Source: a virus. Taken from it: a stretch of 24,911 nucleotides of DNA. Under the pieces are notes generated by a model. It was not told the origin of the DNA. It made no database searches and saw only the letters and a program-made list of their open reading frames with translations. The stretch covers positions 1-24,911 of IMG/VR virus record IMGVR_UViG_3300037071_004995. The stretch is one strand, 5' to 3'. Below, in pieces: positions 1-23,502 of the stretch (within the stretch, counting starts at the first letter, position 1; every line of letters starts with the position of its first letter). The position numbers and the translations under genes were made by a program.

Positions 1-336
1 GGGCCAGTTGACCACCTTGGCAGCTTCGCCTGTAGCGCGTAGCCGGATCGTGGTTCCGCTGGCTTCCAGGATACAGGCCCAGGCGGAATCAGTTTCAGTC
101 GAGTGAATCGAGGTGGTAGCACCCACTTGAGCCAGCACCCCAGCCGCATCGGTGAGGAATGTGCCGGCCAGGATGTAACTAGCCGCCTGTGCCAAAGGCA
201 CGTCCACCGCGATGACTTTGGCTTCGACTAGATAAGCCCGACCGGGCCTAGTCTGGAAGTCTGCCAGCGTGGTTACAGTCGCGTCTGTCGTGGTGATGCT
301 CGGCCCCAGCGGTTGCGTTGTATTAAGAGTAGCCAT
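1..336 (-). CDS. Partial phage structural protein (N-terminal 112 residues)
   Basis: The reading frame opens at the ATG at 336 and runs off the left edge with no stop, so only the first 112 residues are visible. GAGAAAGGAAC precedes the start as a good ribosome binding site. The product is rich in Thr, Ala and Val and has no predicted helix-rich stretches. Its segment around residues 60-112 (LAGTFLTDAAGVLAQVG, then DSAWACILEAS, then a closing VVNW) resembles the beta-rich repeats seen in phage decoration, fibre and tail-associated proteins. It lies 31 bases downstream of the probable major capsid gene on the same strand and is probably co-transcribed with it. A virion role is inferred from position and composition; the exact function is unknown. 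Confidence 0.6.
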   Translation of the reverse strand, partial: MATLNTTQPLGPSITTTDATVTTLADFQTRPGRAYLVEAKVIAVDVPLAQAASYILAGTFLTDAAGVLAQVGATTSIHSTETDSAWACILEASGTTIRLRATGEAAKVVNWP

Positions 337-367
337 ATAAAAGTTCCTTTCTCTCTAATTCAGTTGG

Positions 368-1549
368 TTAGCTGCAAGCCGTGACAAGGGCGCAAGACGG
401 GTCACATCGGAGATGGACAAAGGCCACGCCGCGCTCGGGATGAATCGGCATGGAAGCCGCCGCCAGGATACCGCGATGGAAGAGAATATTTCCATCCGGG
501 TTGCAGATCCGGTCCACGATGTTCTTGACCGTGAAATGACCAGTGTAGGTGACAGGATCAAACCGGAAGTTAGGCGCAGGGTTAGTGATCGGCTCAGGGA
601 TCAACTGCTTCATCACCATCGGATCTTTGATCACCGTTTCCTCGTAAGGTGCGCTCTCGTAGGCCGTGTTGATATCTGCCTTCTGGCCCTTGGTCGCCGC
701 AGCCGTCATAAAGGCTGGGACTTCAGTATAGACACCACCCGCGCAGGTAAACCGGCGAGGATATGGGTCGATGATGTGAATAAATCCACGGTAGACCCGG
801 TTATTGGTCAGGATCGGCTTGAGCAATTCGTTTGGTTCAGCCCAGCGTATATCCTGCCGCAGATCGGGGTTGAGCTTGATGAGGTTCTCGCTCGTCTCCC
901 AACTGGTGATCAGGGTGAACACGGGCCGGCCATTATCCCTAGCCATTGCGGACTGGGCAGCGCCGTCTCGGGAGAGCTTGGCCGCATAACGGTCCAGGAT
1001 GCCTTGAGTCAGAATTGAAGTGGGGCAAACAGCGGGGTAAGTCGTGGCGCTGGTGTTGGATTCTGTCGGGGGACAGCCATCTACTACCACCTTGCGCTTA
1101 ACCAACCTGAAATACTCCTGTCGATTATGGATTTCCCATTCCAACTTGGCGTATTCAGCCATGATATCGGAGATGGCGTTTAATTGCTGGGTAAGCGCAA
1201 ACGGAGTGCGCTGATCCTCAGCGCAGAAGTCCGGGCCTTCCAGGGCTCGGCGTTGCAGGTTGAAGTTCCTGGTGGTCGAACCAATCCCGATCTTGGTGAC
1301 AGGGGGCAAACAAGCACCGCCTTCAGCACCGTCTACGGTTAGAACATCAGTCCAAGCGGGGGCGGCTTCAAGTGGGGCTGACCTTTCATAAGTTAAAACG
1401 TTGAGTACGTCACCCATCCCTTTTGGGAAGGTGCCACGGGGCATAAGCTGCACCTGTGGAGATGTGGCAAAATTCCTCTTGTAAATTTCCTCTGCTAGGT
1501 AGCGTCCTGATTCTCTGACAACTATGTCGGTTATCGCCGTACAAGCCAT
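368..1549 (-). CDS. Probable major capsid protein
   Basis: This 393-residue protein is about the usual size for an HK97-fold capsid subunit. It lies downstream of terminase, portal and scaffold on the same strand, which is the classical head-gene order. I see no diagnostic short motif; the call rests on position, length, a mixed alpha/beta composition and lack of enzyme motifs. I chose the ATG at 1549 (MACTAITDIV) over a TTG two codons upstream because AAAAGG lies about seven bases before it. The protein has several cysteines, for example near residues 4, 79 and 108, unusual for a capsid protein and possibly relevant to stability. The spacing from the scaffold gene is abnormal: six unrelated genes intervene. 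An alternative is another abundant head protein. Confidence 0.7.
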   Translation of the reverse strand: MACTAITDIVVRESGRYLAEEIYKRNFATSPQVQLMPRGTFPKGMGDVLNVLTYERSAPLEAAPAWTDVLTVDGAEGGACLPPVTKIGIGSTTRNFNLQRRALEGPDFCAEDQRTPFALTQQLNAISDIMAEYAKLEWEIHNRQEYFRLVKRKVVVDGCPPTESNTSATTYPAVCPTSILTQGILDRYAAKLSRDGAAQSAMARDNGRPVFTLITSWETSENLIKLNPDLRQDIRWAEPNELLKPILTNNRVYRGFIHIIDPYPRRFTCAGGVYTEVPAFMTAAATKGQKADINTAYESAPYEETVIKDPMVMKQLIPEPITNPAPNFRFDPVTYTGHFTVKNIVDRICNPDGNILFHRGILAAASMPIHPERGVAFVHLRCDPSCALVTACS

Positions 1550-1752
1550 AAACAAACCTTTTCATTCTGAATTGGAAAATGAAGAATCCGAGAAACGACT
1601 GCACTAGCAGTGCGTGGATCTTCGTTGGTTTGTCGTGGCCAACCGACTATGGGCCGAGAGGCAAGTGGAAGAAACTGGATGCCCTAAGCTGGGCAAGCGA
1701 TATCCAGCAACTCTTGTTGCCGGAACAGGGATGGACTAGACGGGAGGTAATG
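1550..1752. other. Intergenic leader of the capsid gene
   Basis: About 200 bases carry no convincing gene. Two short perfect inverted repeats are visible: GCACT-agc-AGTGC at 1601-1613, and GTTGG/CCAAC at 1624-1628 and 1639-1643. Neither is followed by a T-run, so they are not obvious terminators. The region sits between the homing endonuclease and the capsid gene and is the natural place for a separate capsid promoter or mRNA-stabilising 5' structure, but I find no convincing -10/-35 pair. Confidence 0.35.
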
Positions 1753-2217
1753 TCAAGAGGAACTAGGAGGAGCAAATTCCCCCCAAACCGCAATCTCTGC
1801 TAATCGTCGAGCAACTTTGGCTCCTTCTAGCGTCTCAAAGTTCCCCACGTGTTTGCCTTGTATGTGAACTTGCCAATTCTGATTTGGCTTGCACCAAACC
1901 ACTCCCTTAACCCCACTGGTATTGTTTCTAAGCATACCGCGATTTCCCTGATTTTGAGAACGGGTACACGGTCGCAAGTTGTGTCTCTGATTATCCAGTC
2001 CATTGCGATTTACATGATCGGCGTGAACGTCATCGGGCAGCTTAAGAATAATTCGGTGCATGAACACTCTTGTCCACTTGCCGTCTATCATCATGGACAT
2101 CCGGGCGTAGTTGGTGTGCTTAAACTTTGCAACCTGCCACTTCCACTGGTTTAGCCATTCAAAATCGGCATCATCAACCATCGCCGAGAAACCTTGTGTG
2201 AGAGAGATCAATTTCAT
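1753..2217 (-). CDS. HNH homing endonuclease with AP2 DNA-binding domain
   Basis: This 154-residue protein has an HNH nuclease core at about residues 50-90: FMHRIILK, then DDVHADHVNRNGLDNQRHNL, with H65, D67, H68 and N80 as metal and catalytic candidates. An AP2-type DNA-binding domain follows at about residues 100-146 (SGVKGVVWCKPNQNWQVHIQ, then a FETLEGAKVARRLAE helix). Length and order match free-standing HNH-AP2 homing endonucleases, which cut intron-less or intron-less-like alleles and spread their own gene. AGGGG lies eight bases before the ATG. It stands alone between the sugar-modification cassette and the capsid gene, with about 200 bases of non-coding sequence on each side, as expected for an inserted mobile gene. 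No intron boundary was recognised in the capsid gene. Confidence 0.85.
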   Translation of the reverse strand: MKLISLTQGFSAMVDDADFEWLNQWKWQVAKFKHTNYARMSMMIDGKWTRVFMHRIILKLPDDVHADHVNRNGLDNQRHNLRPCTRSQNQGNRGMLRNNTSGVKGVVWCKPNQNWQVHIQGKHVGNFETLEGAKVARRLAEIAVWGEFAPPSSS

Positions 2218-2322
2218 CGCTAACCCCTAAGCGCGTCCGTTGAGCTTACAGAGGCAAACACCGCACAGGGATGCGCAGCAAAACCTACACAACGAACGCG
2301 ATTAAGAGCCAGGATCATTAGT

Positions 2323-2344
2323 TTGAGACCTGTAAGAGTCTTAA
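2323..2344. repeat. Small inverted repeat downstream of the methyltransferase cassette
   Basis: TTGAGAC (2323-2329) and GTCTTAA (2338-2344) can pair over seven positions with one wobble and an eight-base loop. There is no T-run on either side, so it is at best a weak terminator or processing site between the last cassette gene and the homing endonuclease. The rest of 2218-2403 shows no gene. Confidence 0.25.
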
Positions 2345-2403
2345 AAGATCAAACCACCTTCCTACTCGTTTTGAAAGTAAAATCCTAGTAAAAGTACCAG
2401 TAC

Positions 2404-2985
2404 CTATAGCTTCTCCACCGCTACCGAGTACCCTTTGTGCAACGCTTTAAGCTGTTCCCGGTACACCTCCATGAAAGCATCAATCGCCATCTTGGGCCGG
2501 TGCCGCTGGATCTGGTCAGTCCCTGGCCATTCATAGTCATCCATAAACATCACCCCACCTTTCTTGAGCAATGGCCATGATAGAACCATGTCAGAGAGGA
2601 CATCGGGAGCCATGTGGGAGCCATCCACGTATACGATGTCCCTCCAGCACTTAAGATTTTTAAGATTCAACCAGGATGCACCTGAGAGCAATTGGATTCT
2701 GTCTTTGTAGGCTTCGGTATTGGATTTGAACCGTATCATTGTGTTCAAGTCTATAACCATATCGAAATGCTTGTGCTCCTGGCTGCCTTCAAAAGTGTCT
2801 ATGCAGGTTATGGTGGATGTGGGATCGGTTAGAATATTCTCAAGTAGCCACAGTGTTCCCCGCCCTTCGAAGCACCCGATCTCCAGCGCGTGGATATCAG
2901 GTTTGCCTTTGAACTTGGCCAAGACTTCGGTGAGCGGACCAATATTCTGACTAAACCAGTCGCACGTAAAAACAGGTTCACTCAT
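2404..2985 (-). CDS. Class I SAM-dependent methyltransferase (Methyltransf_24-like)
   Basis: The product is 193 residues from the ATG at 2985. Motif I is ALEIGCFEGRGT (about residues 33-44), the binding loop for S-adenosylmethionine. An acidic residue follows in CIDTFEG (61-67), then DIVYVDGSHMAPDVLSDM (116-133) and GGVMFMDDYEW (143-153). The VDGxH plus D-D-Y pattern is typical of the Methyltransf_24/CmcI-like group, which often methylates sugars or small molecules. A longer in-frame start at 3102 lies entirely inside the preceding FkbM-like gene and is less likely. The start overlaps that gene's stop by eight bases, so translation is probably coupled. It is the last gene of the five-enzyme cassette. 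The substrate is unknown; a surface or virion glycan is inferred from its neighbours. Confidence 0.8.
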   Translation of the reverse strand: MSEPVFTCDWFSQNIGPLTEVLAKFKGKPDIHALEIGCFEGRGTLWLLENILTDPTSTITCIDTFEGSQEHKHFDMVIDLNTMIRFKSNTEAYKDRIQLLSGASWLNLKNLKCWRDIVYVDGSHMAPDVLSDMVLSWPLLKKGGVMFMDDYEWPGTDQIQRHRPKMAIDAFMEVYREQLKALHKGYSVAVEKL

Positions 2986-3673
2986 TTGGGTTAATGATGA
3001 TATTACAGATCCTATCCGGCAGTTGCTTGAGTTTGGTGAATGTCCAGTCCCCTTCCATTGTGGGGGTGCCGTAGTTGGTGATGGCAGCCCATAACATGGC
3101 ACACTGATCTGGATTGAGAGTGGGGAACCGTTCCACCTGAACTACCGCCTTGGAAGCCTTGAGCCACGAGGTGTACTCGGCCAGGAGCAATCCATCCTCT
3201 CCCTCGCAATCAATCTTCACAAATGACGGCTTCTCGGGAAACGAGTCCAGTCGCACACATTTAACTGTGACTGGTTCGCCTTCTGTCAGGTATCCGCCGT
3301 TAATCTGTCCGCAGTGGTAATGGAATATTCTCTCTTCCCGCCGCACTCCTACGGCATAGGGAATAACCCAGATCGTGGCGAACTGTGGGTTTAGCGTGGA
3401 GTTCTGGAGCAGGATCTCCAGCGAAACGAGGTTTGGCTCAAAGGCCAGCACTTGGCCTGTTGGACCAGCAGTTACGGCGTAGGGCAATGCTGTGTCGCCA
3501 GTGTAGGCTCCGATGTCGATAACGGTGTCTCCGGGTTTTATGAAGTTGGAGATCCAGTCGATGTCCGACTGAGCGAAAACCTTTCGTTGCTCGCTGGGAT
3601 GATGCCAGTTTGCGAACTTGGCCTTACCCCATTTGTCCAAGTCAAACTCTTCTATGGTAGTTTGGTATTTCAT
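2978..3673 (-). CDS. FkbM-family-like methyltransferase
   Basis: This 231-residue protein has the hallmarks of FkbM-type SAM-dependent O-methyltransferases: VIDIGAYTGD at residues 51-60 (SAM-binding loop), LAFEPN at 76-81, and FVKIDCEGED at 151-160, the characteristic KIDxEG strand. Family members usually methylate hydroxyl groups of sugars in polysaccharides, glycolipids or natural products. It lies seven bases downstream of the radical SAM gene and overlaps the next methyltransferase gene by eight bases. There is no obvious Shine-Dalgarno sequence, so it probably depends on read-through coupling. The target is not shown by the sequence; a glycan built by the two glycosyltransferases encoded upstream is the natural inference. 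Confidence 0.85.
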   Translation of the reverse strand: MKYQTTIEEFDLDKWGKAKFANWHHPSEQRKVFAQSDIDWISNFIKPGDTVIDIGAYTGDTALPYAVTAGPTGQVLAFEPNLVSLEILLQNSTLNPQFATIWVIPYAVGVRREERIFHYHCGQINGGYLTEGEPVTVKCVRLDSFPEKPSFVKIDCEGEDGLLLAEYTSWLKASKAVVQVERFPTLNPDQCAMLWAAITNYGTPTMEGDWTFTKLKQLPDRICNIIINPNE

Positions 3674-3680
3674 CCGCGAA

Positions 3681-4514
3681 CTAACTGTGCATATTACAGG
3701 AATTGCAAGGCGTCAGGTTTCTCTTGATGGTGGTTCTGTATTTTCTAGCCAGATCAGCGTTGAACACCTCTAGCAGTGATTGTTTGTTCAGATCCCCGAG
3801 TGCGTACTGAGCGTCTTGATCCAAGCAACACAGTGCCACCTTTCCGCTGGCCAGGATGCACATTCCGTTCTGCCTCGGGCAAATAATATCCAGCCACGGG
3901 CGGTAATCTATGTGGCTCTTTATACTTCCTTTCCAGTTCCATCTCTGGGCCACAAATGCTGCTGTGCCCGGAAAAGTTTCAGCACAGAACTTCAGAAACT
4001 TTAGATCTTCTGCTTGGTTCCCGTTGCCAACTCGAAGGATCACGATCTGTCGGGTAATGGGCAAGGTTCGGTCTGAATTGATCAGCCTGTGAATGCTCTC
4101 AATAGTTTTTGTCCACGGGATCTTGAGTTCAGCTTCGTACTCGGTGGCGCTGGAGTGGTGGAGAGAAAGGTTGATCGTGTAGATGTTCTTCACGGTCCTA
4201 AGTTGTTCTATGTTCCGCTCGGTGAATAGACTGCCGTTGGTGTAGAAAACAATCGAGGTCTTGGGCAGTTTCTCGTTGATCAACCGGCAGAAGTCATAGA
4301 TCCGAGCATCAGCAAAAGGTTCATTGGTCAGGAACGGGCAGATCGTGTTTGGTGGGGCTTGCCAGGTGGCGATCTCGTTAATGATCTGGCTGAACATCTC
4401 CTCGGTCATTCGCACCGATGCGCCTAGCTCACGGCTGGAATGAGGGCAGAAACCGCACGCTGCGTTGCAGAATGCGGAAGTCTCGATTTGGACTAAGGTG
4501 GGGTATTCGGTCAA
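3681..4514 (-). CDS. Radical SAM protein with SPASM/twitch-like C-terminus
   Basis: This 277-residue protein begins with the radical SAM cluster motif, C16-x3-C20-x2-C23 (FCNAACGFCPH), which binds a 4Fe-4S cluster and S-adenosylmethionine. The GGE-like position is replaced by FLTNEPFAD (about residues 61-69). A second cysteine set lies at the C-terminus: CPRQNGMCILASGKVALCC (about residues 212-230), then CNSCNMHS at the very end, as in SPASM/twitch proteins that hold auxiliary clusters. Such enzymes modify peptides, sugars or cofactors. The start is a TTG at 4514 sharing TTGA with the stop of the upstream glycosyltransferase, so translation is coupled. No later start keeps the cysteine motif. 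Sitting between glycosyltransferases and methyltransferases, it may alter a sugar or the glycosylated protein; the substrate is unknown. Confidence 0.85.
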   Translation of the reverse strand: MTEYPTLVQIETSAFCNAACGFCPHSSRELGASVRMTEEMFSQIINEIATWQAPPNTICPFLTNEPFADARIYDFCRLINEKLPKTSIVFYTNGSLFTERNIEQLRTVKNIYTINLSLHHSSATEYEAELKIPWTKTIESIHRLINSDRTLPITRQIVILRVGNGNQAEDLKFLKFCAETFPGTAAFVAQRWNWKGSIKSHIDYRPWLDIICPRQNGMCILASGKVALCCLDQDAQYALGDLNKQSLLEVFNADLARKYRTTIKRNLTPCNSCNMHS

Positions 4515-5212
4515 AGTGGTCTGTTTCCAAGGAAGCGCACCTTCTTTTTATCCAAAGCCCAACTCTCTGGAAGAGGAACGTCTGCCGGTCTAGTGCGGGG
4601 CATATGACCAGATGCAATCTGATTGTAAGCATCTATCTTGGCCCACACTTCCTCGGACGGCTTACTTTTACCATAATGGAAGATGTGCAAGTTGGGCAAG
4701 AGTGTTGAATAGGGCATTTGGAAGGCAGGTTTGTCTGTACACTTGCGGAGGTACTCATGGACTGGCCCAGTGTAGTTGTATCCCATGTTCAACTTGAAAG
4801 CCCTGGCCTGGTAGTCTGGATAGAACGATGGACAGAAATGGTTGAAGTCATCGACAAACTCAAAGCGTGAGAAAATCAAACTCTCCTCTGTCTCCATGTA
4901 CTGACGAAGGGAAACTAAATCATCGGGCAACATGGATTCATCAGCATCGAGCATGAGCAGCCAATCGTACCCTAATCTTTCTGACAATCCTATGAGAGTG
5001 TTGCGGGCATGTGCATAATCCCGTTGCCACGGATAATCATTTGCAAAGTGAAACACTCGTGGCTCATGGACTAGACTCCTTACACCATGTTCCCACTGTG
5101 CATCTGGAGGTGTCAGTATAATCAACCCATCGAAGTGAGAGATTACCGGACGCAGGCATAAGACTAACAGTGACTCAACCGGGCGGGCGATGATTCCAAG
5201 GGCTACTTTCAT
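4511..5212 (-). CDS. GT-A fold glycosyltransferase (GT2-like)
   Basis: This 233-residue protein looks like a family 2-type glycosyltransferase. After an N-terminal strand (MKVALGIIARPVESL) comes a helix ARNTLIGLSERLGYDWLLML (about 69-88) and the metal/nucleotide-sugar motif D89-A-D91 followed by E92. An H-x-F-H-Y-G segment near residues 172-177 could be the later metal-binding histidine region. GT2 enzymes transfer a sugar from a nucleotide donor; there are no membrane segments here, so it is probably cytoplasmic. Its ATG shares ATGA with the stop of the large glycosyltransferase upstream, and its own stop overlaps the TTG start of the radical SAM gene. Short length suggests a compact catalytic domain without an acceptor-specific extension. 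Donor and acceptor are unknown. Confidence 0.8.
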   Translation of the reverse strand: MKVALGIIARPVESLLVLCLRPVISHFDGLIILTPPDAQWEHGVRSLVHEPRVFHFANDYPWQRDYAHARNTLIGLSERLGYDWLLMLDADESMLPDDLVSLRQYMETEESLIFSRFEFVDDFNHFCPSFYPDYQARAFKLNMGYNYTGPVHEYLRKCTDKPAFQMPYSTLLPNLHIFHYGKSKPSEEVWAKIDAYNQIASGHMPRTRPADVPLPESWALDKKKVRFLGNRPL

Positions 5213-6984
5213 ACCGGAAACCCATATTCCTTAAGGATTGAGATCATGGTTTTAGCCGAGTGCTCCAGGGTGAACCGTCGAGCAGACTTGGCTGAGAGGA
5301 GAGATTTTTCTTGGAGTTCCATTCGGTCCTCGTAAGCACGGCGCATCTGACGGGCCATGCTCGCTACTGATGGTTGAGCGTAAACCCCCATGCTTTCGTA
5401 GATGCCCTGTGCCGGGACCAGTTTGAAATCCACCGGGTACCCATTCTCCCAACTGAAGAACTCGGCCACCCCGCCAAAGTTCACTCCGATTACTGGGCGT
5501 CCCATGCACATCGCTTCGTGTTGATGCTTTCCCCATCCTTCCGAAGCAGAGCCAGAAACAAAGACATTGATCGACTTGTACCACTCCACCAACTGCGCTT
5601 GCTCGATGTAAAGTTGCAACACTTCGATGCGGGTATCCCCGTAAGTATCCAGCGGTGGATCTTCAGCAAAGGCTTTGACCTTGAGCCGGACATCGGTTTC
5701 TTTCTGGAAGGCGATCCGAAAAGCTTCCACCACGATGTTAAACCCTTTGCGAATCCCACCCACGGCAGTCTTGGCTGCCGTCCCAAAGATCATCGGGCCG
5801 ATGATATTGTTGGAGGTGACTCCGAACACATCGGGGTCAAACCCAAGAGGACAAATCCTGATCGGAGTATTCACCCCGCAAGAGGAAAATATAGAAGCAT
5901 TCCAAGCGTTTGGCGTAAGGATTACTTTGCACTTGTTCATCACATCCACGGCCTTAGTTCTCCGAGGGTCAACTGTGGAGACAAGGCGAGTACTTTCCCA
6001 CATTGAGAAATAGGCGTGGGACTGTCTTCCAAGAACCAGATTGGCCGGCTGGATCACGCAGGGGAAGATTATAAGATCCCAATCGTGCGGGTTCTGGTGC
6101 TTGCGCATACACCTCTTGATTTGTGGTGGAATGTCGCCGTGGATCTCATTCCAACTGGGCGGGAATATCTCCACGGCATAATCGAGCTTCATTAGCTCCA
6201 TAGCCATCTGGGAAGAGAAAATTCCGTAGCCACTGGAAGCGTCCAGATGGGCGATGATCGGGATCAGCTTTCGATCCTTTGGTTTGGCCTTGAAAATAGT
6301 GGGGATATACCTAGTCCAACTACTAGACTCCTCCAGCCGTTCCACCAAGGTTCCGTCTTTGCAGCGGTGGAATAGAACAGCGTCATCCCGGACCAGCCTG
6401 GAGATGCTTTCCACGGTTGGGAATGAACATCCATCAGTGGTGATCAAGTGCTGGATCAGCGGAGTGTGCTCCATGAACTTCTCCACCTCCTCCCGCATCA
6501 CCACATCAAACGGAGCTACCCGGCAGAGCAGTGCCTTGACGGTGTAGTTGTGAATGTCAGCCGGGTAGATGGCTACTCCATTTAAGTGCCCGTCCCACTC
6601 GGACATGACGCAGCCCAGAAAGGGTTTACCCGATTCTTCCTTAGCCTCGGATAGTGATGTGAGCCAGCCCTTTCTTAACGGAGAGGCGTCCTGTTCCCAC
6701 CAGAGCCATGATTGTTTCTGCTTGGCCAGGTAACGGGCCACTGACTGCCATGCCCAGTTCTGTGGGTGCGGCCAGGCTGGTTCCCCATTCCATTTGTCGT
6801 AGCAGAAAGTTGTAACTTGCCCGAAGTAACCCCGGGCTAACTCGAGTACCTTGGCCGGGTCGTAACTGGTGTCGTAACAAACCACGCAGGAGAAATCCAC
6901 ATGGCCATCCAACTTCTGGCACCAGCGCAGGTTGGCTAAGGCCAGATGCTCATCCTTGGCGCAGACGGGAAGGGCAACGATCAT
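5209..6984 (-). CDS. Two-domain glycosyltransferase (GT-A-like plus GT4/GT-B fusion)
   Basis: This 591-residue protein appears to be two enzymes in one chain. Residues 1-215 resemble a GT-A-type domain: a start like MIVALPVCAKDEHLALANL, and WLWWEQDASPLR at about 93-104, where EQD stands at the DxD position. Residues about 238-591 look like a family 4 GT-B enzyme: AHLDASSGYGIFSSQMA (246-262) as the N-lobe glycine loop, CPLGFD at 378-383, a KTAVGGIRKGF segment (405-415), and the E482-x7-E490 signature in SEGWGKHQHEAMCMGRPVIG. No membrane segments are seen. The gene shares ATGA with the stop of the scaffold candidate and with the start of the next glycosyltransferase. It could build a disaccharide or longer glycan; the acceptor is unknown. 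Confidence 0.85.
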   Translation of the reverse strand: MIVALPVCAKDEHLALANLRWCQKLDGHVDFSCVVCYDTSYDPAKVLELARGYFGQVTTFCYDKWNGEPAWPHPQNWAWQSVARYLAKQKQSWLWWEQDASPLRKGWLTSLSEAKEESGKPFLGCVMSEWDGHLNGVAIYPADIHNYTVKALLCRVAPFDVVMREEVEKFMEHTPLIQHLITTDGCSFPTVESISRLVRDDAVLFHRCKDGTLVERLEESSSWTRYIPTIFKAKPKDRKLIPIIAHLDASSGYGIFSSQMAMELMKLDYAVEIFPPSWNEIHGDIPPQIKRCMRKHQNPHDWDLIIFPCVIQPANLVLGRQSHAYFSMWESTRLVSTVDPRRTKAVDVMNKCKVILTPNAWNASIFSSCGVNTPIRICPLGFDPDVFGVTSNNIIGPMIFGTAAKTAVGGIRKGFNIVVEAFRIAFQKETDVRLKVKAFAEDPPLDTYGDTRIEVLQLYIEQAQLVEWYKSINVFVSGSASEGWGKHQHEAMCMGRPVIGVNFGGVAEFFSWENGYPVDFKLVPAQGIYESMGVYAQPSVASMARQMRRAYEDRMELQEKSLLSAKSARRFTLEHSAKTMISILKEYGFPV

Positions 6985-8132
6985 CTCCCGGAAAACCCAC
7001 CAGCCTCAGCGATCATCTTGGCCAGAGCATCTCCGTGAGTCAGGCCCTTGTACTTATCGCCATCTGTGTCGCTGGTGGTTTCGGAAGATTCCAAACCCGG
7101 CTCGGAGACACGCAGTTTGCCCAGTTCAGCCTTAAGTTTGGCATTCTCTTCCAGGGTTGAGGCAAAGGTTTTCTCAAACTCTGGCAGCGCCGAAGAGAAT
7201 GCGGCATACCGGGCCTTCTCTTCTGGAGAGATGTCCCCAGAGAAAATCTGGCGGGCCTTCTCTATCCTTTCCTTGACTCCTTTGTTCCAAGCAGCATCAC
7301 CATCCTTTTGTATGAACGGGGCCACGCCTTTCTCTGGTTCTCCCATCGACTTGATCTCACGGTCAAAGACGGAGTTAAGCTTTTCCTTCTCCCGAGTCGT
7401 TTCCATCGCCTGGGCCTCCTGGAGCTTCTTCCAGTTCTCGGACGAGTTCTCGATGACCTTGTTGCGCTCGATCTGGAGCTTGTCCATGTCGGCTACAGCG
7501 CGTTCCAACCGGGCTCGGCGCAGAGGCGTTAAGTCCTCCGAGAGAGCTTCTAATTGCTCGGTCCTCCAATCACTGTCGGGTAAGTCCAGAAGCTTGATTG
7601 CTTTCTCAGCCTTGTCCCCCATCGCCGACTTAATCAGGGCCTTGATGCTGTCGGCCTCTCCGTTGAAATGTTTCTGGAACTTATCGGATTTCTCCAAGGC
7701 CACCGCTTCCAACCGTTCAGCAAGTTTCTGTCTCTCGGTTTTTAGAGAATCATATTCCTTGGGATCAAATCCGTTGAACACTTCCAGTTTGGACTTTAGC
7801 TCATCACGCTCCTTTTCCACCTGCACCTTGGCATCATGGAAAGCTGCCCATTCTGAAGCCTTGCGCGGAGTGGGCGGCCTGTCTATCTTAGGCTCCGTTG
7901 TTTGTGTTTGGCTCCTAGCAACTGGGGCTGGTGCGGTTGGGGTTTGTTCCGCATCAGCCTCTTCCCTTGTCGGATTCATGGCTTGCTCGGCCCGATCTGC
8001 AAAAGCTTTCTCGGCGGCCTGTAAGAAGGCCGGATCATCAAACCCCTTAGCAATAATTGGATCACCGCCGGCTGGCGATTGAGTGACGACATTGGTGGAA
8101 CCTGAACCAGGGGATAGGACGGGGTCTGGCAT
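6981..8132 (-). CDS. Probable capsid scaffolding protein
   Basis: This 383-residue protein is highly charged and mostly helical, with long coiled-coil stretches at about residues 98-150 and 205-260, a Pro/Ala/Thr-rich disordered segment at about 52-90 and a disordered, Gly-rich C-terminus. That composition, and its place between portal and capsid genes, are typical of phage scaffolding proteins, which form the inner core of the procapsid and bind the coat through their C-terminus. It starts two bases after the stop of the 69-aa gene upstream and overlaps the first glycosyltransferase by ATGA. The coat gene would normally follow directly; here it is about 5.4 kb away. An internal virion protein is the main alternative. 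Confidence 0.7.
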   Translation of the reverse strand: MPDPVLSPGSGSTNVVTQSPAGGDPIIAKGFDDPAFLQAAEKAFADRAEQAMNPTREEADAEQTPTAPAPVARSQTQTTEPKIDRPPTPRKASEWAAFHDAKVQVEKERDELKSKLEVFNGFDPKEYDSLKTERQKLAERLEAVALEKSDKFQKHFNGEADSIKALIKSAMGDKAEKAIKLLDLPDSDWRTEQLEALSEDLTPLRRARLERAVADMDKLQIERNKVIENSSENWKKLQEAQAMETTREKEKLNSVFDREIKSMGEPEKGVAPFIQKDGDAAWNKGVKERIEKARQIFSGDISPEEKARYAAFSSALPEFEKTFASTLEENAKLKAELGKLRVSEPGLESSETTSDTDGDKYKGLTHGDALAKMIAEAGGFSGR

Positions 8133-8134
8133 AA

Positions 8135-8344
8135 TTAACTAAACTTTTGTTTCATGTTGACCAATAAACATAGGTCTATATTGACTGGTGTGAAAATCGT
8201 CTCGTATTTTGGAAGAATCAATCCACTTTTAGTTGGAATCCATTTTCGATCATAGGTGATCGCTGAAGGCAAGATCATAAACGTGCAACCAGCCCTAATA
8301 ATGGAAGACAGGAATCCCCTTCGGCCATAATCTCTATTCCACAT
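8135..8344 (-). CDS. 69-aa protein with twin-arginine-like signal in the head operon
   Basis: From the ATG at 8344 the product begins MWNRDYGRRGFLSSIIRAG. The RRGFL sequence followed by a short hydrophobic stretch (about residues 10-28, ending near LPSAITYD) resembles a bacterial twin-arginine (Tat) signal. Short RRxFL proteins of this kind are known to me from head modules of many metagenomic phages, where their function is not established. A TTG at 8371 would add nine residues and sits further inside the preceding gene; the ATG is preferred because it keeps the RR motif near the N-terminus, although its ribosome binding site is weak. The gene overlaps the upstream gene by 11 bases and precedes the scaffold candidate by two. 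Tat export is only a motif-level inference; a minor head protein is equally possible. Confidence 0.6.
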   Translation of the reverse strand: MWNRDYGRRGFLSSIIRAGCTFMILPSAITYDRKWIPTKSGLILPKYETIFTPVNIDLCLLVNMKQKFS

Positions 8345-8690
8345 CTGGTTTATTGTAATCCTTGGGATCAAAGTCAGCCTCTATTTCCTCTGGCACCGGG
8401 TCAGGATGCTTTGGAAGGCTGAAGATGACATTCAGACAATCCTGATAACCTTCTTTTCGGCCAAGTTCGATCGCGGCTTCCACGTCGGATATGGTCCGTC
8501 CACGAATTGGGTAGCCCGATGGTGCCGCATTCCTGATCGCTGAAAGAGCCTGTTGCCACTCCTTCTTGGTCCAGAGTTCACGGGCAAAGGCCAGATACTC
8601 CGGGCTGTTGCGCCAAGTAAATAGATCCATGCCGGTGAATAGGAACCTCACCTTAACCTTGGGCTTGGGGAAGAAATCTTTGAAGGTCAT
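8334..8690 (-). CDS. Hypothetical head-operon protein (118 aa)
   Basis: I do not recognise a family with a known function. The ATG at 8690 is chosen because it shares ATGA with the stop of the 55-aa gene upstream; a start three codons earlier would lengthen the overlap. The N-terminus is basic and hydrophobic (TFKDFFPKPKVKVRFLF), the middle has helices (SPEYLAFARELWTKKEWQ, then SDVEAAIELGRKEGYQDCL), and the C-terminus is acidic (PDPVPEEIEADFDPKD). It sits between portal and scaffold, so it may be a small structural or assembly factor. No membrane segment or enzyme motif is visible. Confidence 0.7.
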   Translation of the reverse strand: MTFKDFFPKPKVKVRFLFTGMDLFTWRNSPEYLAFARELWTKKEWQQALSAIRNAAPSGYPIRGRTISDVEAAIELGRKEGYQDCLNVIFSLPKHPDPVPEEIEADFDPKDYNKPDVE

Positions 8691-8854
8691 GCGTACCATT
8701 TGTCAATATCCTTAAACACTTCAACAATTTCTTCGTACCCCATACTGGAAAGAAGAGAACAGAGTATGCCATCTGCTTCTACGTGGGAAGCCTTAGGATC
8801 ACTTCCACGGTTATTCAAGTCCTTGAGTTTTTCCAATGCTTCTTCTGGTGTCAT
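8687..8854 (-). CDS. Small conserved-type protein (55 aa) after the portal gene
   Basis: A 55-residue reading frame starts with an ATG sharing ATGA with the portal stop and ends sharing ATGA with the next gene, which strongly supports it as real. It reads MTPEEALEKLKDLNN, continues with KASHVEADGILCSLLSSM and ends FKDIDKWYA. The pattern of an ADG(I/L)L helix followed by a terminal (D/E)KWYA recalls a small helical protein family found in many phages and bacteria, with no function known to me. It has no cysteine cluster or membrane segment. It is probably a small helical accessory of the head operon. Confidence 0.75.
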   Translation of the reverse strand: MTPEEALEKLKDLNNRGSDPKASHVEADGILCSLLSSMGYEEIVEVFKDIDKWYA

Positions 8855-11145
8855 TCAGCGGTGCTCTTGGCCTCGGCGGTTTCGCTAGCAATTCTGATCT
8901 TGCTTGCTGCCATCATGTCATTGATAGCGAGTTTCTGGCTGGTCTTCTTGGCGTTCTCGGAGAGCTTGAAATTTGTTTTGCGCTCATCCAACTGCATCTT
9001 GTGCTCTGCTTCGGCGGACTTGATCATGGTGTCAGGATCTTGCCCATTCCTGATTGATTGAGCCTGCTGTTGGGCGGCCTGCATCTCCTGCTCTTGCTTG
9101 GCTTGAGCCTCGGCCTGTTGCTCCACGAGGTTTCGCAATTGATCGGTTTGTTTTCCCATTTCCTCCCACTGATCCAAAAGCGTTTGAACAATATCCTTAC
9201 GGGTAGGATCTTGTTCCATCCTTTGAATATGTTTTCTGGCTGCTGGACCTACTAACTCCATAAAGGCTAAAACCTCTCGTGGGTCTGCTCCTTGTTGCAC
9301 GCTTTCCAGAGCTTGAGACCCAGCCTGTAAAAATGTTTGTGCGTAGATAACTGGGTTCTGGGTCGATGTGACCACAGCCTCAATCCCATCCTTCATGCCC
9401 GACACCTGAAGCATGGCCATTGCATGATGATCGCTGGGTAATTCGTTTTGATCCGGTTTGGGATTATACCGCTGGACCTTGCCCTCACTCGTGTAGATGG
9501 CAATCGTGTCATCAATGAAATTGGATCGTCCCGTCTCTGGTAGCATCGGGATAAATGGGGCCAGGGAACCAAGAGCTTGCTGGCGCATCATACTTGAGCC
9601 GTTGCCCATATTCCTGTCGGCCTTTACGCTATCTATCTTGCGCAGATCCTTCTTGGGCACCCCGCGCTTCACACAACGATCCTGGTACTCAATAGCCATC
9701 TTCGCAAACTTGCCCATCGAGGCATGGATGTTCGGATTGGAAAGCCGGCGGTACATTTCCCGGTAGGCATAATCCAGATAGGAATAGAACCGATTGACGG
9801 CTGAGTTCCCAAGCACGCTGGCCATGCTCATCCTCTGCTGAAATTCACCAAGGGTCATCGGGTTTCCGGGCTTGGGGTCCAGTCGCGGTCGGTAGATCCC
9901 CGTATTGGCTTCCAGCATCGCATCCAGATCACGGTTCATGGCCACCGATGATTCGATGTCGCCGAGCACGGTGCTTTGCTGGATATCAAAGTCCGGTCCA
10001 ATCACATGATAGCCACCGCCCATGTGGGAGATCCCGACCTTTTGCAGAGCTGCCGCGGTCTTGGCTTGAAGGGTGATTCCAAGCCTCAGAAACGTAGCAT
10101 CCATCCCAGCGCAGCGCAGTCTGGATTTTAGCGTCATGGGCGCGTAAATCTGCTTTCCCAGTCCAGCCGAGGCGTTCCAGGAGCCACTCTTTACCTCAAA
10201 GAAAAATGGGGCGATGATCTGGGAAGCTTCCTCGAACTTGTCCACCTTCTTGTAGAGATATTCCTTGTCGGTGTTCTGCCCAGTGCGCTCGATGATGAAA
10301 TGGCTCCACTTGCCGCTAAACTCCCGAACGTAAACATGAGCCACCTTGACACAAGGCATCCGCATGGAAGTGGAAAGATCGTGGTCGCGCAGTTGGTTCT
10401 GGAGTTCAATCGCCTCGGAACTGTCGGCTTCTACATTGGGTGTGGCGTGACGGATGGCATCCTTGCAGCCTTTAGGATTCCAGCCGAGAGAGCGGGCGGT
10501 AGATTCATCCCGGACGCGATTGTAGAGGTTGTGAACCTTCATGTCCTGCAAGACCACGAACATCTCAAACTCATCCTCGATATCACACTCGGTCCCATCA
10601 GGCACCTTGACCCGGTAATGGGAGACTCGCTTGAAACGCCAGTCCAAAGTATCCTCCCACATCAGGAACCCTTTCCCGTAACCCAGGAAATCATTGATCA
10701 TGCTCCAGACATGGAAATCAAATGGCGCGTAATTCTCTAACAGACGGTCCATCTCCTCGGTCTGGATATTCCCGTACTCCTCGCGCCTGGACTCATCATC
10801 ACAATCGGAGGTGATGACGGCGTAATGTTTTCCAGAAGCAAAGAGATCGTAGTATGGGGCGCATCCAGCCGACAGTGAAGCCGATCCTTCTAGGGTATTG
10901 AAGTTCGCCCGACGGGACTGGCCAGCATTGCGCAGCTTAGAGGAATTGTAAGGCGGGTTTCCATCGAACATGGACTGGATCAGCGCGTCATGGTTCGATC
11001 TTCCCTTGTCAGCATCAACCAGAGTTGTGACGATATTAAAGGTGTGGCTGGGAGATTCCAGTCTACTCTTAGGAGGCTTTCCATTGTCACCGAGCGTCTT
11101 TAATCCATAGCTATCCTGGGGCCAGTTGGGAGTGTTTGAGTCCAT
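8851..11145 (-). CDS. Phage portal protein (podovirus-like)
   Basis: This 764-residue protein sits two small genes downstream of the terminase and is translated just three bases after the preceding stop. Length and order fit the large portal of podovirus-like phages, the dodecameric ring through which DNA enters and leaves the capsid. The N-terminal half has an Asn/Asp-rich segment and wing-like beta strands (VWSMINDFLGYGKGFLMWED around residues 145-164). A long helix and stem-like part lies around residues 430-480 (PMTLGEFQQRMSMAS). The last 110 residues are a Gln/Ala/Glu/Lys-rich coiled coil (about 660-764), like the barrel extension of long portals. I assign it on size, context and general pattern rather than one diagnostic motif. 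Confidence 0.85.
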   Translation of the reverse strand: MDSNTPNWPQDSYGLKTLGDNGKPPKSRLESPSHTFNIVTTLVDADKGRSNHDALIQSMFDGNPPYNSSKLRNAGQSRRANFNTLEGSASLSAGCAPYYDLFASGKHYAVITSDCDDESRREEYGNIQTEEMDRLLENYAPFDFHVWSMINDFLGYGKGFLMWEDTLDWRFKRVSHYRVKVPDGTECDIEDEFEMFVVLQDMKVHNLYNRVRDESTARSLGWNPKGCKDAIRHATPNVEADSSEAIELQNQLRDHDLSTSMRMPCVKVAHVYVREFSGKWSHFIIERTGQNTDKEYLYKKVDKFEEASQIIAPFFFEVKSGSWNASAGLGKQIYAPMTLKSRLRCAGMDATFLRLGITLQAKTAAALQKVGISHMGGGYHVIGPDFDIQQSTVLGDIESSVAMNRDLDAMLEANTGIYRPRLDPKPGNPMTLGEFQQRMSMASVLGNSAVNRFYSYLDYAYREMYRRLSNPNIHASMGKFAKMAIEYQDRCVKRGVPKKDLRKIDSVKADRNMGNGSSMMRQQALGSLAPFIPMLPETGRSNFIDDTIAIYTSEGKVQRYNPKPDQNELPSDHHAMAMLQVSGMKDGIEAVVTSTQNPVIYAQTFLQAGSQALESVQQGADPREVLAFMELVGPAARKHIQRMEQDPTRKDIVQTLLDQWEEMGKQTDQLRNLVEQQAEAQAKQEQEMQAAQQQAQSIRNGQDPDTMIKSAEAEHKMQLDERKTNFKLSENAKKTSQKLAINDMMAASKIRIASETAEAKSTAE

Positions 11146-11358: not shown

Positions 11359-11984
11359 TTCTGCCAGCAATACTCGGGCAACCTGTCCTGGTACTCTTTA
11401 GCCTTCTCGGTAATCAGATCCTGGGGCATCTGAATTAAGGCTTTCAAGCTACACCCGCACCCGGCCAGGCAGGATTGCAAAACGGAGTCATACTGGCTTT
11501 TGACCTGTCCGACAAAGGAATTAACCAGAGCCGTGAGTGGGGAATTGCACGTGGCGCATCCCGGAGGGTTGGCGTTGTATGGACACCGAGCACAGATGGC
11601 GGCTCTAGAGTTCATGGTTTCCACGCTGGCCTTCTGCCGACCATTCAACTGCCAGCCGATCAAAGTCTTGGTCCCTTCGATCACCTGGGCAAATGTGAAC
11701 CCATGACGGATCTCCACCGGCTTGTCTGTTGGTGAAGTATAGGAGCACCGATCCGGTGGAAGCAGCCGGCAGAGTTGATCTTGAACCAGCAGGAAGAGAT
11801 TCCCCGGAACCGGAATGCCGTTGGCTTGGTAATGCTTCACCAAGTCGGAGAGCAGTTGGTCCGGGGAAAGGTACTGTTTACCCGGGTCGAGCTTGGGATC
11901 GGGAAACCGTCGGCCTGTCTCGGGCACCAGGTAGCGCCAGTATCCAGGAGGGGTTTCCCGGATGTTATTTACGATTAAGCTCAC
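11355..11984 (-). CDS. Cysteine-rich putative metal-binding phage protein
   Basis: This 209-residue protein uses a GTG start that shares GTGA with the terminase stop. Its C-terminal half has seven cysteines: C131-x2-C134 (ICARCPYN), C143-x2-C146 (PGCATCN), C172, and C176-x-C178 (CLAGCGCSLKALIQMP). The spacing suggests a zinc or iron-sulphur site. The CxxCPxN ... CGCxLKxLxxxP arrangement matches a protein type I have seen in head modules of podovirus-like phages, with no established role. The N-terminal half (GYWRYLVPETGRRF, DLVKHYQANGIPVP) looks like a separate small domain. Its place between terminase and portal suggests a packaging or connector accessory. Confidence 0.75.
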   Translation of the reverse strand: MSLIVNNIRETPPGYWRYLVPETGRRFPDPKLDPGKQYLSPDQLLSDLVKHYQANGIPVPGNLFLLVQDQLCRLLPPDRCSYTSPTDKPVEIRHGFTFAQVIEGTKTLIGWQLNGRQKASVETMNSRAAICARCPYNANPPGCATCNSPLTALVNSFVGQVKSQYDSVLQSCLAGCGCSLKALIQMPQDLITEKAKEYQDRLPEYCWQK

Positions 11985-13789
11985 CAGTCAACAAAGGCTT
12001 CTTCGGTGGTCTGTTCAAATGGAGTATTGAAGCGCGTGTCCTCATCATACACATCGTTCTGCGCTTTGACGAAGTTAATTTCTTCTTTCGATATGGCCAG
12101 CACCGTTCCAGCTACCAATCCGCGCTGGCGAGCCACCTCGCAAATTACCACCACCGCGTCAGCTTCATCAGGGGAATGTCCGAATTTCTTTTTGAACTCC
12201 AGTTTCGTCTCCAAAACTATTTTCCGGTTCTTGACTGAGTACTGCCGGGAACAGAATTGCTGGATAGCTGCCTGTGGGATTCCCTTCAACTGCCCAGATA
12301 CCACGATAGAACGAACAAAGAACCAGAGTTCGGTCACTCGATTAGCGTAAACCTCATGGCTGGGCCTGGGGTCTTCCTCGCTAGCCGGGCGTTCACTGGC
12401 CATCCCACCAAACTCCACTCGGACACATTCTCCCCAGTCTGTTCGAGTGTGAGAATAAACCCCGCGCCCTGTTCCCGTTGAATCAGATCCATGATTCTGG
12501 GGAACAACTTTACGTTTCTTGCATTCCGCTATGGCAGACTGGGAAATCTGATAGTCTAGTTCGTGTTCCGATGTGGATAAGGGCCTTATTGTCACTGACT
12601 CAGTAAGCTGCAAACCCATCTTGCCCATATTGAGATCCCCCAACAATCCGAACTGATCTATACATTTGTCACCCTCAAATCCAGGGTCCAACCCTGAAAG
12701 GGGATCAGACTTGGAAAGGAAGGTGTGCTTATCCCTGACTCCATATTTAGCAATCATGGCCTCACTTAAGACCGTATTGCACACTCCCTCTGGCGGTGGA
12801 AATCCTTCGGTCCATTTCCAGTATTCAATCGTGTCTTCCTTGCCTTCATCCCGCTGAAAATCTTCCCAGGAGTAAAGAAACGGATAGATGGTTTTTCGAG
12901 CTTTCACATTGGGAGATTCCTTGCCGCGAAACCTAACCGTCAATCCTGGCTCCAAGCACAATTCCCGATCTCCTTTAGCTTTCCATTCGATATCTTCCAC
13001 CGTGACAGACTCCCATCCGTTCACCGGCTGGCACGCTCGATCAAAGGGATCTAGAGTCCGGGAGATAGGATTACCGATGAGCAATACCGTCAGATCCGAA
13101 CAACCCTTAGCCAGGTTGGGTATCACTCGGAAGATAGCCTCGGGAGTGTCAGTAGCCTCGTCCACGATCAACAAGATTCTCTCATTATGAATACCCTGAA
13201 GCTTGGCCACCGTCTTGCCCAGCTCACCCGGTTCTACAGACAGTGCCATGATCGCCCGCAAGCTATCCCCCTTCTCCCGCTGGAGGATGGTCTGGGAATC
13301 CAGGAGATTGCCCGTCTTGATTAACGACTCATCGACCTTGAACTTGTCCGACAGGGTTTTCCTGGCCTGGTAAAAGAAATCCTGGATCTTGGGCCAGATT
13401 CTAGTCTTTACCATCTTACCGCTGGTGCTGGTCAGAATCACCGTAGAGGTCATGGGGCTGGCCAGCCACCAGAGAAAGGCGTAGTGGGCCGAGGAAAAAG
13501 TTTTAGCAGCCGCAGCACAGCCGGGCCAGTAGACATACCGATGGATCACGCTTCCGATCTGAACCGCATACTCGGTCGAGCAGAGCGACTGAATCTGAAT
13601 CCGGCTCCAGTCATGGAATTTTGTCTCCGGCAAAACCATCCGGGAGATGTTTAAGAAATGCCGGTACTTTCCCAATCCCCCCTTGTCGGTCGGATGGCTT
13701 CTCTTAAAACACCAGTACTCCAACTCCAGATCATTTAACTGAACAGGGAAAGAAAGGCCGTATTTGTGCGGGATAGAGACGGCGCTCAC
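11981..13789 (-). CDS. Terminase large subunit (TerL)
   Basis: This 602-residue protein has the two-domain plan of a phage packaging motor. The ATPase has a P-loop-like segment WPGCAAAAKTF at residues 88-98, a Walker B ILLIVDEATD at 205-214 with the catalytic glutamate E211, and a coupling motif LLIGNP at 236-241. The C-terminal RNase H-like nuclease has SGLDPGFEGD (D368), GSDSTGTGRG (D436) and DEADAVVVI (D541, D544) as metal-binding acidic residues. The loop is atypical: the residue before K96 is alanine instead of glycine. Translation starts at a GTG with no clear ribosome binding site, only 38 bases from a divergent gene. It cuts and pumps the genome into the procapsid through the portal encoded downstream. 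Confidence 0.95.
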   Translation of the reverse strand: MSAVSIPHKYGLSFPVQLNDLELEYWCFKRSHPTDKGGLGKYRHFLNISRMVLPETKFHDWSRIQIQSLCSTEYAVQIGSVIHRYVYWPGCAAAAKTFSSAHYAFLWWLASPMTSTVILTSTSGKMVKTRIWPKIQDFFYQARKTLSDKFKVDESLIKTGNLLDSQTILQREKGDSLRAIMALSVEPGELGKTVAKLQGIHNERILLIVDEATDTPEAIFRVIPNLAKGCSDLTVLLIGNPISRTLDPFDRACQPVNGWESVTVEDIEWKAKGDRELCLEPGLTVRFRGKESPNVKARKTIYPFLYSWEDFQRDEGKEDTIEYWKWTEGFPPPEGVCNTVLSEAMIAKYGVRDKHTFLSKSDPLSGLDPGFEGDKCIDQFGLLGDLNMGKMGLQLTESVTIRPLSTSEHELDYQISQSAIAECKKRKVVPQNHGSDSTGTGRGVYSHTRTDWGECVRVEFGGMASERPASEEDPRPSHEVYANRVTELWFFVRSIVVSGQLKGIPQAAIQQFCSRQYSVKNRKIVLETKLEFKKKFGHSPDEADAVVVICEVARQRGLVAGTVLAISKEEINFVKAQNDVYDEDTRFNTPFEQTTEEAFVDW

Positions 13790-22956: not shown

Positions 22957-22975
22957 TTTGTGTGTTTTTGTTGTT
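22957..22975 (-). repeat. CA-rich leader repeat, copy 7 (minus strand)
   Basis: AACAACAAAAACACACAAA on the minus strand abuts the ATG at 22956. No GG is present, so it is the A/C-rich half only. Confidence 0.6.
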
Positions 22976-23502
22976 CAGAATGGGCATTTGCCAAGGTCGG
23001 CCAGAATTGTGCGCTTGAGTGATCCTATTTTATCTTCCTGCGTTTCGACTGGATTGTGTAGCGCAACGACCCACCACCTTTCCCCTTTCCAGTTTTCAGG
23101 TTTCAATGTTCCGTGTAGTGCTTTATGCGAGCACAGTGTCAACGGACCTGAAACCTCCTCCTCTAGCCCAACGGCTGCTTTTGTTTTTGAGCCTCCGTTT
23201 GCGGGTGTGCCATCATTGTTTGAGCGCCAAAAGGCAACTGTTGCGTTAGGCTGTCGGTGCTCCTCTAAGATTGCGGCGATGTATTTCTCCTTTTCGTAGC
23301 CGTCGCCGCAGCCGTCGCCGGAGCCGGAGCCGGAGCCGTAGCCGTAGCCGGAGCCGGAGCCGTCGCCGGAGCCGTCGCCGTAGCCGGAGCCGTAGCCGTA
23401 GCCGGAGCCGTAGCCGTAGCCGTCGCCGTAGCCGTAGCCGGAGCCGTAGCCGTAGCCGGAGCCGTAGCCGGAGCCGTCTAACCCCAAGGTTGTTGGTTCC
23501 AT
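22975..23502 (-). CDS. (Gly-X)n repeat protein with conserved C-terminal phage domain
   Basis: From the ATG at 23502 (MEPTTLGLDG) the 175-residue protein has 30 consecutive X-Gly pairs (X = Tyr, Ser, Asp or Cys; about residues 9-68), then a folded domain: YIAAILEEHRQPNATVAFWR, GTPANGGSKTKAAVGLEEEV, GPLTLCSHKALHGTLKPENW, WWVVALHNPVETQEDKIGSL. The order P-L-x-L-C-x-x-x-A-L-H-x-T-x-x-P-x-x-W, then W-V-V-A-L is one I recognise from phage proteins of unknown function (a DUF7666-like type), often preceded by such Gly-rich runs. AGAGG lies four bases before the ATG. It overlaps the end of the upstream gene by 25 bases. Whether the Gly-rich arm binds RNA, forms a flexible tether or self-associates is unknown. 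Confidence 0.8.
   Translation of the reverse strand: MEPTTLGLDGSGYGSGYGYGSGYGYGDGYGYGSGYGYGSGYGDGSGDGSGSGYGYGSGSGSGDGCGDGYEKEKYIAAILEEHRQPNATVAFWRSNNDGTPANGGSKTKAAVGLEEEVSGPLTLCSHKALHGTLKPENWKGERWWVVALHNPVETQEDKIGSLKRTILADLGKCPF
23296..23478 (-). repeat. Hexanucleotide repeat array encoding (Gly-X)30
   Basis: About 183 bases of six-base units, GGCTAC, GGCTCC or GGCGAC (one TGC), read on the minus strand. X is Tyr 12 times, Ser 11, Asp 6, Cys once. Every glycine is GGC, and the units differ only at the two positions that change X, as expected of slippage-type expansion. The opposite strand contains an open frame of Arg and Ser, which is a by-product. Confidence 0.9.

Follow-up and report, generated by a model that had tools for sequence, protein, structure and literature searches.

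Why should a set of glycan-type enzymes be encoded among the genes that build a phage head? This question was raised by a 24.9 kb stretch of an IMG/VR virus record (IMGVR_UViG_3300037071_004995; hereafter the window). Read 5' to 3', its minus strand encoded the large terminase subunit (TerL), the portal protein, a small protein, the scaffold protein, a 591-amino-acid (aa) two-part glycosyltransferase (GT591), a GT2-type glycosyltransferase (GT2), a radical SAM enzyme, an FkbM-family methyltransferase (FkbM), a Methyltransf_24-type methyltransferase, an HNH endonuclease, the major capsid protein and a further small protein. The five enzyme genes between scaffold and HNH endonuclease are called the cassette here. 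In our view there is about an even chance that it is a phage glycan locus, made late with the head, whose products would glycosylate a virion protein in the cytosol and cap the added sugars.

The cassette consisted of GT591 (5209..6984), GT2 with its DADE motif (4511..5212), the radical SAM/Twitch enzyme with a TTG start (3681..4514), FkbM (2978..3673) and Methyltransf_24 (2404..2985), all on the minus strand. As read from the sequence, the scaffold gene was joined to GT591 by an ATGA overlap (6984-6981), GT591 to GT2 by another ATGA (5212-5209), and GT2 to the radical SAM gene by TTGA (4514-4511). A 7-base gap separated the radical SAM gene from FkbM, and FkbM and Methyltransf_24 shared the 8-base overlap ATGAGTGA (2985-2978). 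The start of Methyltransf_24 was set at ATG 2985 and not at the GTG start of the open reading frame (ORF) at 3102, on the basis of a 48% identical homologue in the related record L013. Sequence reading and family matches confirmed the five ORFs described in an earlier note on this DNA, with their coordinates, strand, order and overlaps. That note had put the cassette between scaffold and capsid; the order was right, but the capsid gene was not directly next, since the 848 bp from Methyltransf_24 to capsid contained an HNH gene and a leader which had been missed. Promoter and terminator scans of positions 1-9000 gave no signal above shuffled sequences, so the case for joint transcription of the cassette with the head genes lies in the overlaps themselves.

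Close relatives were found by scans with the capsid, portal, glycosyltransferase and TerL proteins, and two of them, L002 and L013, were long (L-numbers denote related records compared with the window). In L002, a 58-kb contig with capsid, portal and scaffold identities of 88%, 71% and 62%, the order was scaffold, GT591 (74%), HNH, GT2 (57%), FkbM (58%) and capsid. In L013, a 53-kb contig with capsid, portal and TerL identities of 70%, 46% and 43%, it was scaffold, a small ORF, GT591 (59%), GT2 (36%), an 86-aa ORF, FkbM (49%), Methyltransf_24 (47-48%), a small ORF resembling twin-arginine (Tat) proteins, and capsid. The GT591-GT2-FkbM core therefore kept the same order and site in three diverged phages, and Methyltransf_24 was present in two of the three. 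A chance arrangement was excluded, because three of the five enzyme genes recurred at this site in both relatives and a fourth in one. The claim that the cassette is one of glycan-type enzymes tied to head genes was thus upheld by the family matches, the overlaps and the shared site. The radical SAM gene, which the earlier note had counted as part of the cassette, was absent from both contigs: the whole of L002 contained no relative of it or of Methyltransf_24, and L013 contained no radical SAM gene, with the Radical_SAM search positive in 14 of 14 control genomes. It is an accessory member, seen among the three phages in the window only. Two further capsid relatives, L096 and L097 (67% and 54% identical), also carried such enzymes upstream of capsid, namely a Methyltransf_24 gene in L096 and, in L097, a GT2 and a Methyltransf_24-like gene amid HNH-like, DNA-methylase-like and helicase-like genes.

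The identities of GT591, GT2 and FkbM dropped in step with those of TerL, portal and scaffold. Comparison of GT591 with its L002 homologue gave a non-synonymous difference (pN) of 0.18 and a synonymous difference (pS) of 0.77, and GT2, FkbM and Methyltransf_24 gave pN of 0.28-0.44 at pS of 0.82-0.91 across the two comparisons; synonymous divergence (dS) was saturated in most pairs, for which dN/dS was not obtainable. Because the identities tracked the head genes, synonymous sites were saturated and non-synonymous change was low, the core was judged old and under purifying selection. On this sequence comparison, the locus is best described as old and vertically kept, with turnover of accessory genes. 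Relatives lacking the cassette, or a recent insertion, had been named beforehand as findings that would speak against a virion role, and neither was encountered for the core.

The wider capsid family carried similar sets at a different place. A capsid profile found 316 relatives, and the best 80 of these 316 were mostly 28-33% identical. Twenty-one head modules had a readable portal and scaffold, several of them near-identical, so that about 11 distinct types were represented; apart from L013, which entered via GT591, they were picked for homology in capsid, portal or TerL. Glycan or methyl enzymes lay between portal and scaffold in 17 of the 21 modules and between scaffold and capsid in three (window, L002 and L013); no module had both sites loaded. 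The proposal that the order is conserved and always beside a capsid gene therefore held for the core in L002 and L013 and failed in the wider family, whose cassettes occupy the portal-scaffold interval. Since 20 of the 21 modules were loaded, carrying a glycan set of variable content among the head genes is habitual in this family. In co-oriented modules, the unloaded scaffold-capsid gap measured only 143-212 bp. The window's clade has moved the glycan set to the other side of the scaffold gene or gained one anew there.

By Pfam, the portal-scaffold sets comprised GT2, GT25, Gly_transf_sug, Methyltransf_24, other class I methyltransferases, of which some matched TylF, and GH130-type proteins; TylF and RMNT_CmcI, both matched in the family's modules, are sugar-type O-methyltransferases. 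The portal-scaffold cassettes (L004, L026, L054, L071 and L073) resembled that of the window in functional class (glycosyltransferases, Methyltransf_24 and other methyltransferases), in their place in the head block and in belonging to homologous phages. They differed in the site, in the glycosyltransferase families used (GT25, Gly_transf_sug) and in the addition of GH130, and neither radical SAM nor FkbM was recognised in them. GH130-type proteins, of the mannooligosaccharide phosphorylase family, were seen near scaffold in every portal-scaffold cassette (L004 7365-8294, L054 16127-17485 (-), and others); a phosphorylase or hydrolase is unexpected in a head block. In a large capsid subgroup (L026, L038, L054, L061-L086), the capsid gene was encoded on the other strand from scaffold and portal, and tail-fibre-like genes lay between them. 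As for the host, a contig of an Akkermansiaceae metagenome-assembled genome, whose binning may be wrong, contained an L054-type capsid (92%). A genome search that covered Verrucomicrobiota only gave the best cellular matches to both the radical SAM protein and the C-terminus of GT591. These are weak hints of a host in Verrucomicrobiota.

Both glycosyltransferases were assigned from profile matches. The C-terminal domain of GT591 (about 240-590) is GT4-type (PF13692, E 2e-9; also PF00534), and the protein matched PHROG_2170 (E 2e-24). The N-terminal domain is perhaps GT-A; alignment with a GT2 profile by hhalign gave a probability of 10% only, over a DxD-like region. An AlphaFold2 model of GT591 from three sequences reached a predicted local distance difference test score (pLDDT) of 32. 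For GT2, PHROG_13126 was matched at E 2e-10 and PF00535 at E 0.004, which is below the cut-off. Its nearest solved structures were GmaR (E 8e-6) and SunS (E 0.005) in the PDB, and NCBIfam SunS was matched at E 0.003. SunS is a peptide S-glycosyltransferase. The glycosyltransferase domain of GmaR adds N-acetylglucosamine to flagellin (PMC9638930). The phage GT2 shared with these two proteins, the nearest solved sequences to it, a GT2-type catalytic domain of similar length; it differed in its low identity, and in its 233 aa the TPR region is missing. No clear membrane segment was present in any of the five enzymes, the highest 19-residue hydropathy being 1.89 in the GT2 stretch 15-33, which contains R, H and D.

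The radical SAM protein matched PF04055 (E 9e-11) and SPASM PF13186 (E 7e-11). It contained the CX3CX2C motif (Cys16, Cys20 and Cys23) and four C-terminal cysteines (212, 229, 270 and 273) in a Twitch arrangement, all four of which were kept in L128 and fit one putative auxiliary [4Fe-4S] cluster. The SPASM seven-cysteine motif reads CX9-15GX4C gap CX2CX5CX3C gap C (PMC6231123). Its first half was there (C212-x11-G224-x4-C229), and the protein stopped after C270-x2-C273; because the second half is missing, the enzyme is a Twitch protein and not the full SPASM protein that had been supposed. Searched against solved structures, its profile found BtrN best (E 6e-35, the next at 7e-15), with both halves matching and the C-terminal domain aligned at E 1e-13. 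BtrN carries out the two-electron oxidation of the aminocyclitol 2-deoxy-scyllo-inosamine, and its auxiliary cluster is ligated by cysteines throughout (PMC9012708). The phage protein and this butirosin radical SAM dehydrogenase (PDB 4m7s/4m7t) have in common the CX3CX2C motif, the four-cysteine Twitch domain and a similar length; they differ in the low sequence identity and in the phage setting, and the phage protein is known here from its sequence. The GC content at third codon positions was 0.63 for the radical SAM gene, like its neighbours, and was lower for GT2 (0.51) and HNH (0.50). No relative was found in viral contigs with the single protein or a two-sequence profile, nor in genome contigs with the single protein. 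The only radical SAM match in INPHARED, MT835743.1 (L087), deposited as 'Bacteriophage sp.', was rejected as phage, its V-ATPase(-like) and ABC-transporter genes marking it as bacterial DNA.

The methyltransferases matched their families, FkbM with PF05050 (E 1e-8) and TIGR01444 (E 2e-18) and Methyltransf_24 with PF13578 (E 1e-17). Taken together, the cassette would be produced late along with the head proteins. Working in the host cytosol, the soluble GT2 would place the first sugar onto a virion protein, either the capsid, the small protein 3' of capsid or another structural protein, and GT591 would extend the glycan so started. FkbM and Methyltransf_24 would O-methylate and thereby cap the sugars, which would come from the host, since none of the cassette genes was recognised as a dedicated nucleotide-sugar gene. 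In this phage alone among those seen, the Twitch enzyme would oxidise a sugar position, by dehydrogenation or epimerisation, to give a rarer glycan. The combination suggests that an unusual sugar is attached by this phage to its own virions. The locus would be swapped and rebuilt between lineages, as expected under selection to vary the particle surface. A virion target was favoured over the host cell because the enzymes are soluble, no integrase was found and the relatives of GT2 glycosylate proteins or peptides; the integrase family PF00589 was not found in the window and six related records, which may be incomplete, with the control positive. The same reading is supported by the siting among head genes in 20 of the 21 modules, by a search that found no thymidylate-synthase-type base-modifying enzyme (see below), by the O-antigen/rhamnan, heptose and methyltransferase genes near cellular homologues of the Twitch enzyme, and by the precedent of virion glycosylation in mycobacteriophages. 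A more specific version is offered tentatively and is probably too specific to hold in full: an uncultured phage lineage, perhaps of Verrucomicrobiota, would keep an exchangeable island of virion coat-sugar genes at one of two head-operon sites, and in this phage a radical SAM dehydrogenase would help to give the capsid a sugar that is O-methylated and also oxidised or epimerised. If true, this would be a radical-SAM-tailored virion glycan, of which we found none described before.

Several observations weigh against a virion glycan locus. Profile searches matched the N-terminal domain of GT591 to no family, and the radical SAM protein has low identity to characterised enzymes. Twitch enzymes are chemically diverse, and sequence clusters are a poor guide to function (PMC6231123). 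A 42% identical homologue of Methyltransf_24 was encoded in MW202753.1 (L109; 8910-9470) within a DNA-metabolism region, near a 'dpG-synthase-like' gene, hinting that this type of enzyme is not limited to glycan loci. The lack of a nucleotide-sugar gene noted above counts on the same side, as does L003, the one module of the 21 with no cassette, so a head of this type can do without the glycan.

The enzymes could instead remodel the host surface during infection, masking receptors or excluding superinfection, which we consider unlikely. Enzymes of the GT25 (lipopolysaccharide-type) and GT4 families, and O-methyltransferases too, are characteristic of loci for surface polysaccharides, and the radical SAM protein has cellular relatives in such loci: their genes adjoined O-antigen/rhamnan genes on a Brachyspira plasmid and heptose genes on a Roseibium plasmid. 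Other cellular relatives were encoded beside methyltransferase and aminotransferase genes on a Lawsonia plasmid, and beside genes for a methyltransferase and a TPR protein in a Verrucomicrobiota genome (37% identity). The nearest cellular relative found for the GT591 C-terminal domain (38%, E 2e-70) likewise lay in a Verrucomicrobiota genome, within a run of glycosyltransferase-like genes. However, the cassette has no clear membrane enzyme, no integrase was found in the window and six related records, and its presumed late expression in the head block falls at a time when a surface change helps a lytic phage little. Serotype conversion of the gtr type, which involves membrane glycosyltransferases or a flippase and a temperate phage with an integrase, was ranked lower for the same reasons: no clear membrane segment, no integrase found in these records, which may be incomplete, and the siting in the head block.

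It is less likely again that the enzymes are neutral cargo with no virion role, collected at a recombination hot spot in the head block that HNH endonucleases seed. HNH-like genes or remnants were observed within or beside the cassette in the window (1753-2217 (-)), L002 (7031-7501 and 9020-9556 (-)), L014 (about 481-519) and L097 (980-1630 (-)). The window gene (1753..2217, minus strand; PHROG_99, E 9e-34) is likely mobile. It was 53% identical to L002:7031-7501, where HNH_3 passed the cut-off (E 2.5e-7) and AP2 was weak, and which in L002 sat between GT591 and GT2. The varying positions in and around the cassette suggest mobile elements that may drive gene exchange. The radical SAM and Methyltransf_24 genes came and went, and traces of turnover were left. 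In L014 the final 13 codons of an HNH gene persisted upstream of capsid, and in L013 (14168-14450) a strong GC hairpin (CCCCCGCCAG...CTGGCGGGGG) downstream of Methyltransf_24 was followed by a second copy, 94% identical, of that gene's last 31 codons. Against mere cargo, the core persisted, its motifs intact and pN well below pS, in phages whose TerL identity had dropped to about 43%, and the same functional class of enzyme, not a random assortment, recurred in 20 of the 21 modules.

Hypermodification of the phage DNA, with glycosylated and methylated bases, is improbable. Phage glycosyltransferases and radical SAM enzymes are known in that process, Methyltransf_24 matched PHROG_2675 'DNA methyltransferase', and its homologue in MW202753 lies in a DNA-metabolism region. 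However, no thymidylate-synthase/hydroxymethylase family (PF00303) was present in the window or five related records, which may be incomplete, with the control positive; a TET/JBP search (PF12851) was run without a positive control on records that may be incomplete. The cassette is also sited in the head block and not with replication genes, and FkbM and the TylF/RMNT-like matches point to sugar O-methylation. That the radical SAM enzyme acts on a peptide, in the manner of ribosomally synthesized and post-translationally modified peptides or of structural-protein maturation, is equally improbable: Twitch/SPASM enzymes are often peptide-acting and weak NCBIfam matches included peptide maturases, but the nearest solved relative, BtrN, is an aminocyclitol enzyme, the neighbours are glycosyltransferases and sugar-type methyltransferases, and no precursor-peptide gene was recognised.

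The remaining head genes, all on the minus strand, were assigned as follows. TerL (11981..13789), at the start of the head module, matched PHROG_2 (E 1e-6) and had homologues of 66%, 65% and 43% identity in L010, L011 and L013. The portal (8851..11145), which had no Pfam match, and the scaffold (6981..8132), a charged coiled coil, were assigned by position and by synteny with relatives. Portal homologues, about 30% identical in L004-L009, always lay between TerL and scaffold, and scaffold homologues, 25% identical in L013 and about 25% in L003-L009, sat upstream of capsid in L003-L009. A small gene (8334-8699) occupied the portal-scaffold interval. The capsid gene (368..1549, with its ATG at 1549) had no match among Pfam, PHROG and NCBIfam models; homologues in L002, L014 and L013 were 88%, 88% and 70% identical. 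The AlphaFold2 model from 28 relatives was of low confidence (pLDDT 46.6), and its top structural matches by VIA-align were HK97-fold capsids or encapsulins, the best being the cyanophage A4 capsid (Z 13.5); the fold of the model is that expected of an HK97-type major capsid protein. The small protein 3' of it (1..336), an open ORF cut by the window end, has similar ORFs 3' of capsid in L002 and L014, and from its position is possibly a decoration protein.

An untranslated leader of about 200 nt (1550..1752) preceded the capsid gene. Alignment of the leader region (window 1550-1790 (-), L002 9760-10006, L014 505-729, L013 14770-14995) showed partly conserved blocks in the relatives, such as TATCGCTTGCC..GCT, CATAGT and ACAAA, and an Rfam search of the window, leader included, found no family. 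Small proteins with an N-terminal twin-arginine-like RRxFL were encoded next to scaffold or capsid genes (window 8135-8371 (-), L013 14474-14806, L097 3029-3391, L099 313-921); an LPxAxxYxRxW-like stretch was common to three, the three tested had no Pfam match, and a possible export signal is odd for a head block. Outside the head block, a protein with a long, low-complexity glycine-tyrosine-serine repeat (GYGSGYGYGDG...) was encoded at 22975-23652 (-).

How far does this locus depart from known systems? Among 50,697 deposited phage records, no relative of the capsid, FkbM or GT2 was found (E 1e-5), and GT591 was matched over GT4 domains only, at about 25%. Our search of open papers found none joining radical SAM, FkbM, glycosyltransferase, phage and auxiliary metabolic. 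Arthrobacter phage DanielleIgnace gp21 is alike as a single glycosyltransferase embedded in structural genes, and Microcystis phage Mel-JY01 in having a GT-FkbM protein, which combines GT4 and FkbM, beside a structural protein. Both differ from the window in their identity of about 23%, in having no annotated radical SAM or Methyltransf_24 partner and in lying elsewhere than between scaffold and capsid.

Virion glycosylation in the mycobacteriophages Che8, Corndog and Myrna was reportedly first described by Freeman et al. in 2023. The capsids or tails of these phages are reported to be glycosylated by phage glycosyltransferases (PMC12363180, PMC11256854). A glycosyltransferase gene of this type may lie away from the head genes, as in Maravista, where it is near the genome end. 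The window resembles these phages in encoding its own glycosyltransferases; their targets are capsid and tail proteins, whereas the system of the window is known from its genes alone. It differs in that several enzymes, among them two methyltransferases and a radical SAM enzyme, are encoded together within the head block. Phage glycan enzymes are thus known, and are usually treated as scattered extras; new are the scaffold-capsid site, exchange across the family between two head sites, and the BtrN-like radical SAM member, through which radical SAM chemistry enters a phage structural operon. Nearly every sampled member of this large uncultured family has a multi-enzyme glycan set in its head genes, at one of two mutually exclusive sites and with rapid change of enzymes. 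It can therefore be proposed, and tested, that these phages glycosylate their virions as a lasting and diversifying trait and not as a curiosity.

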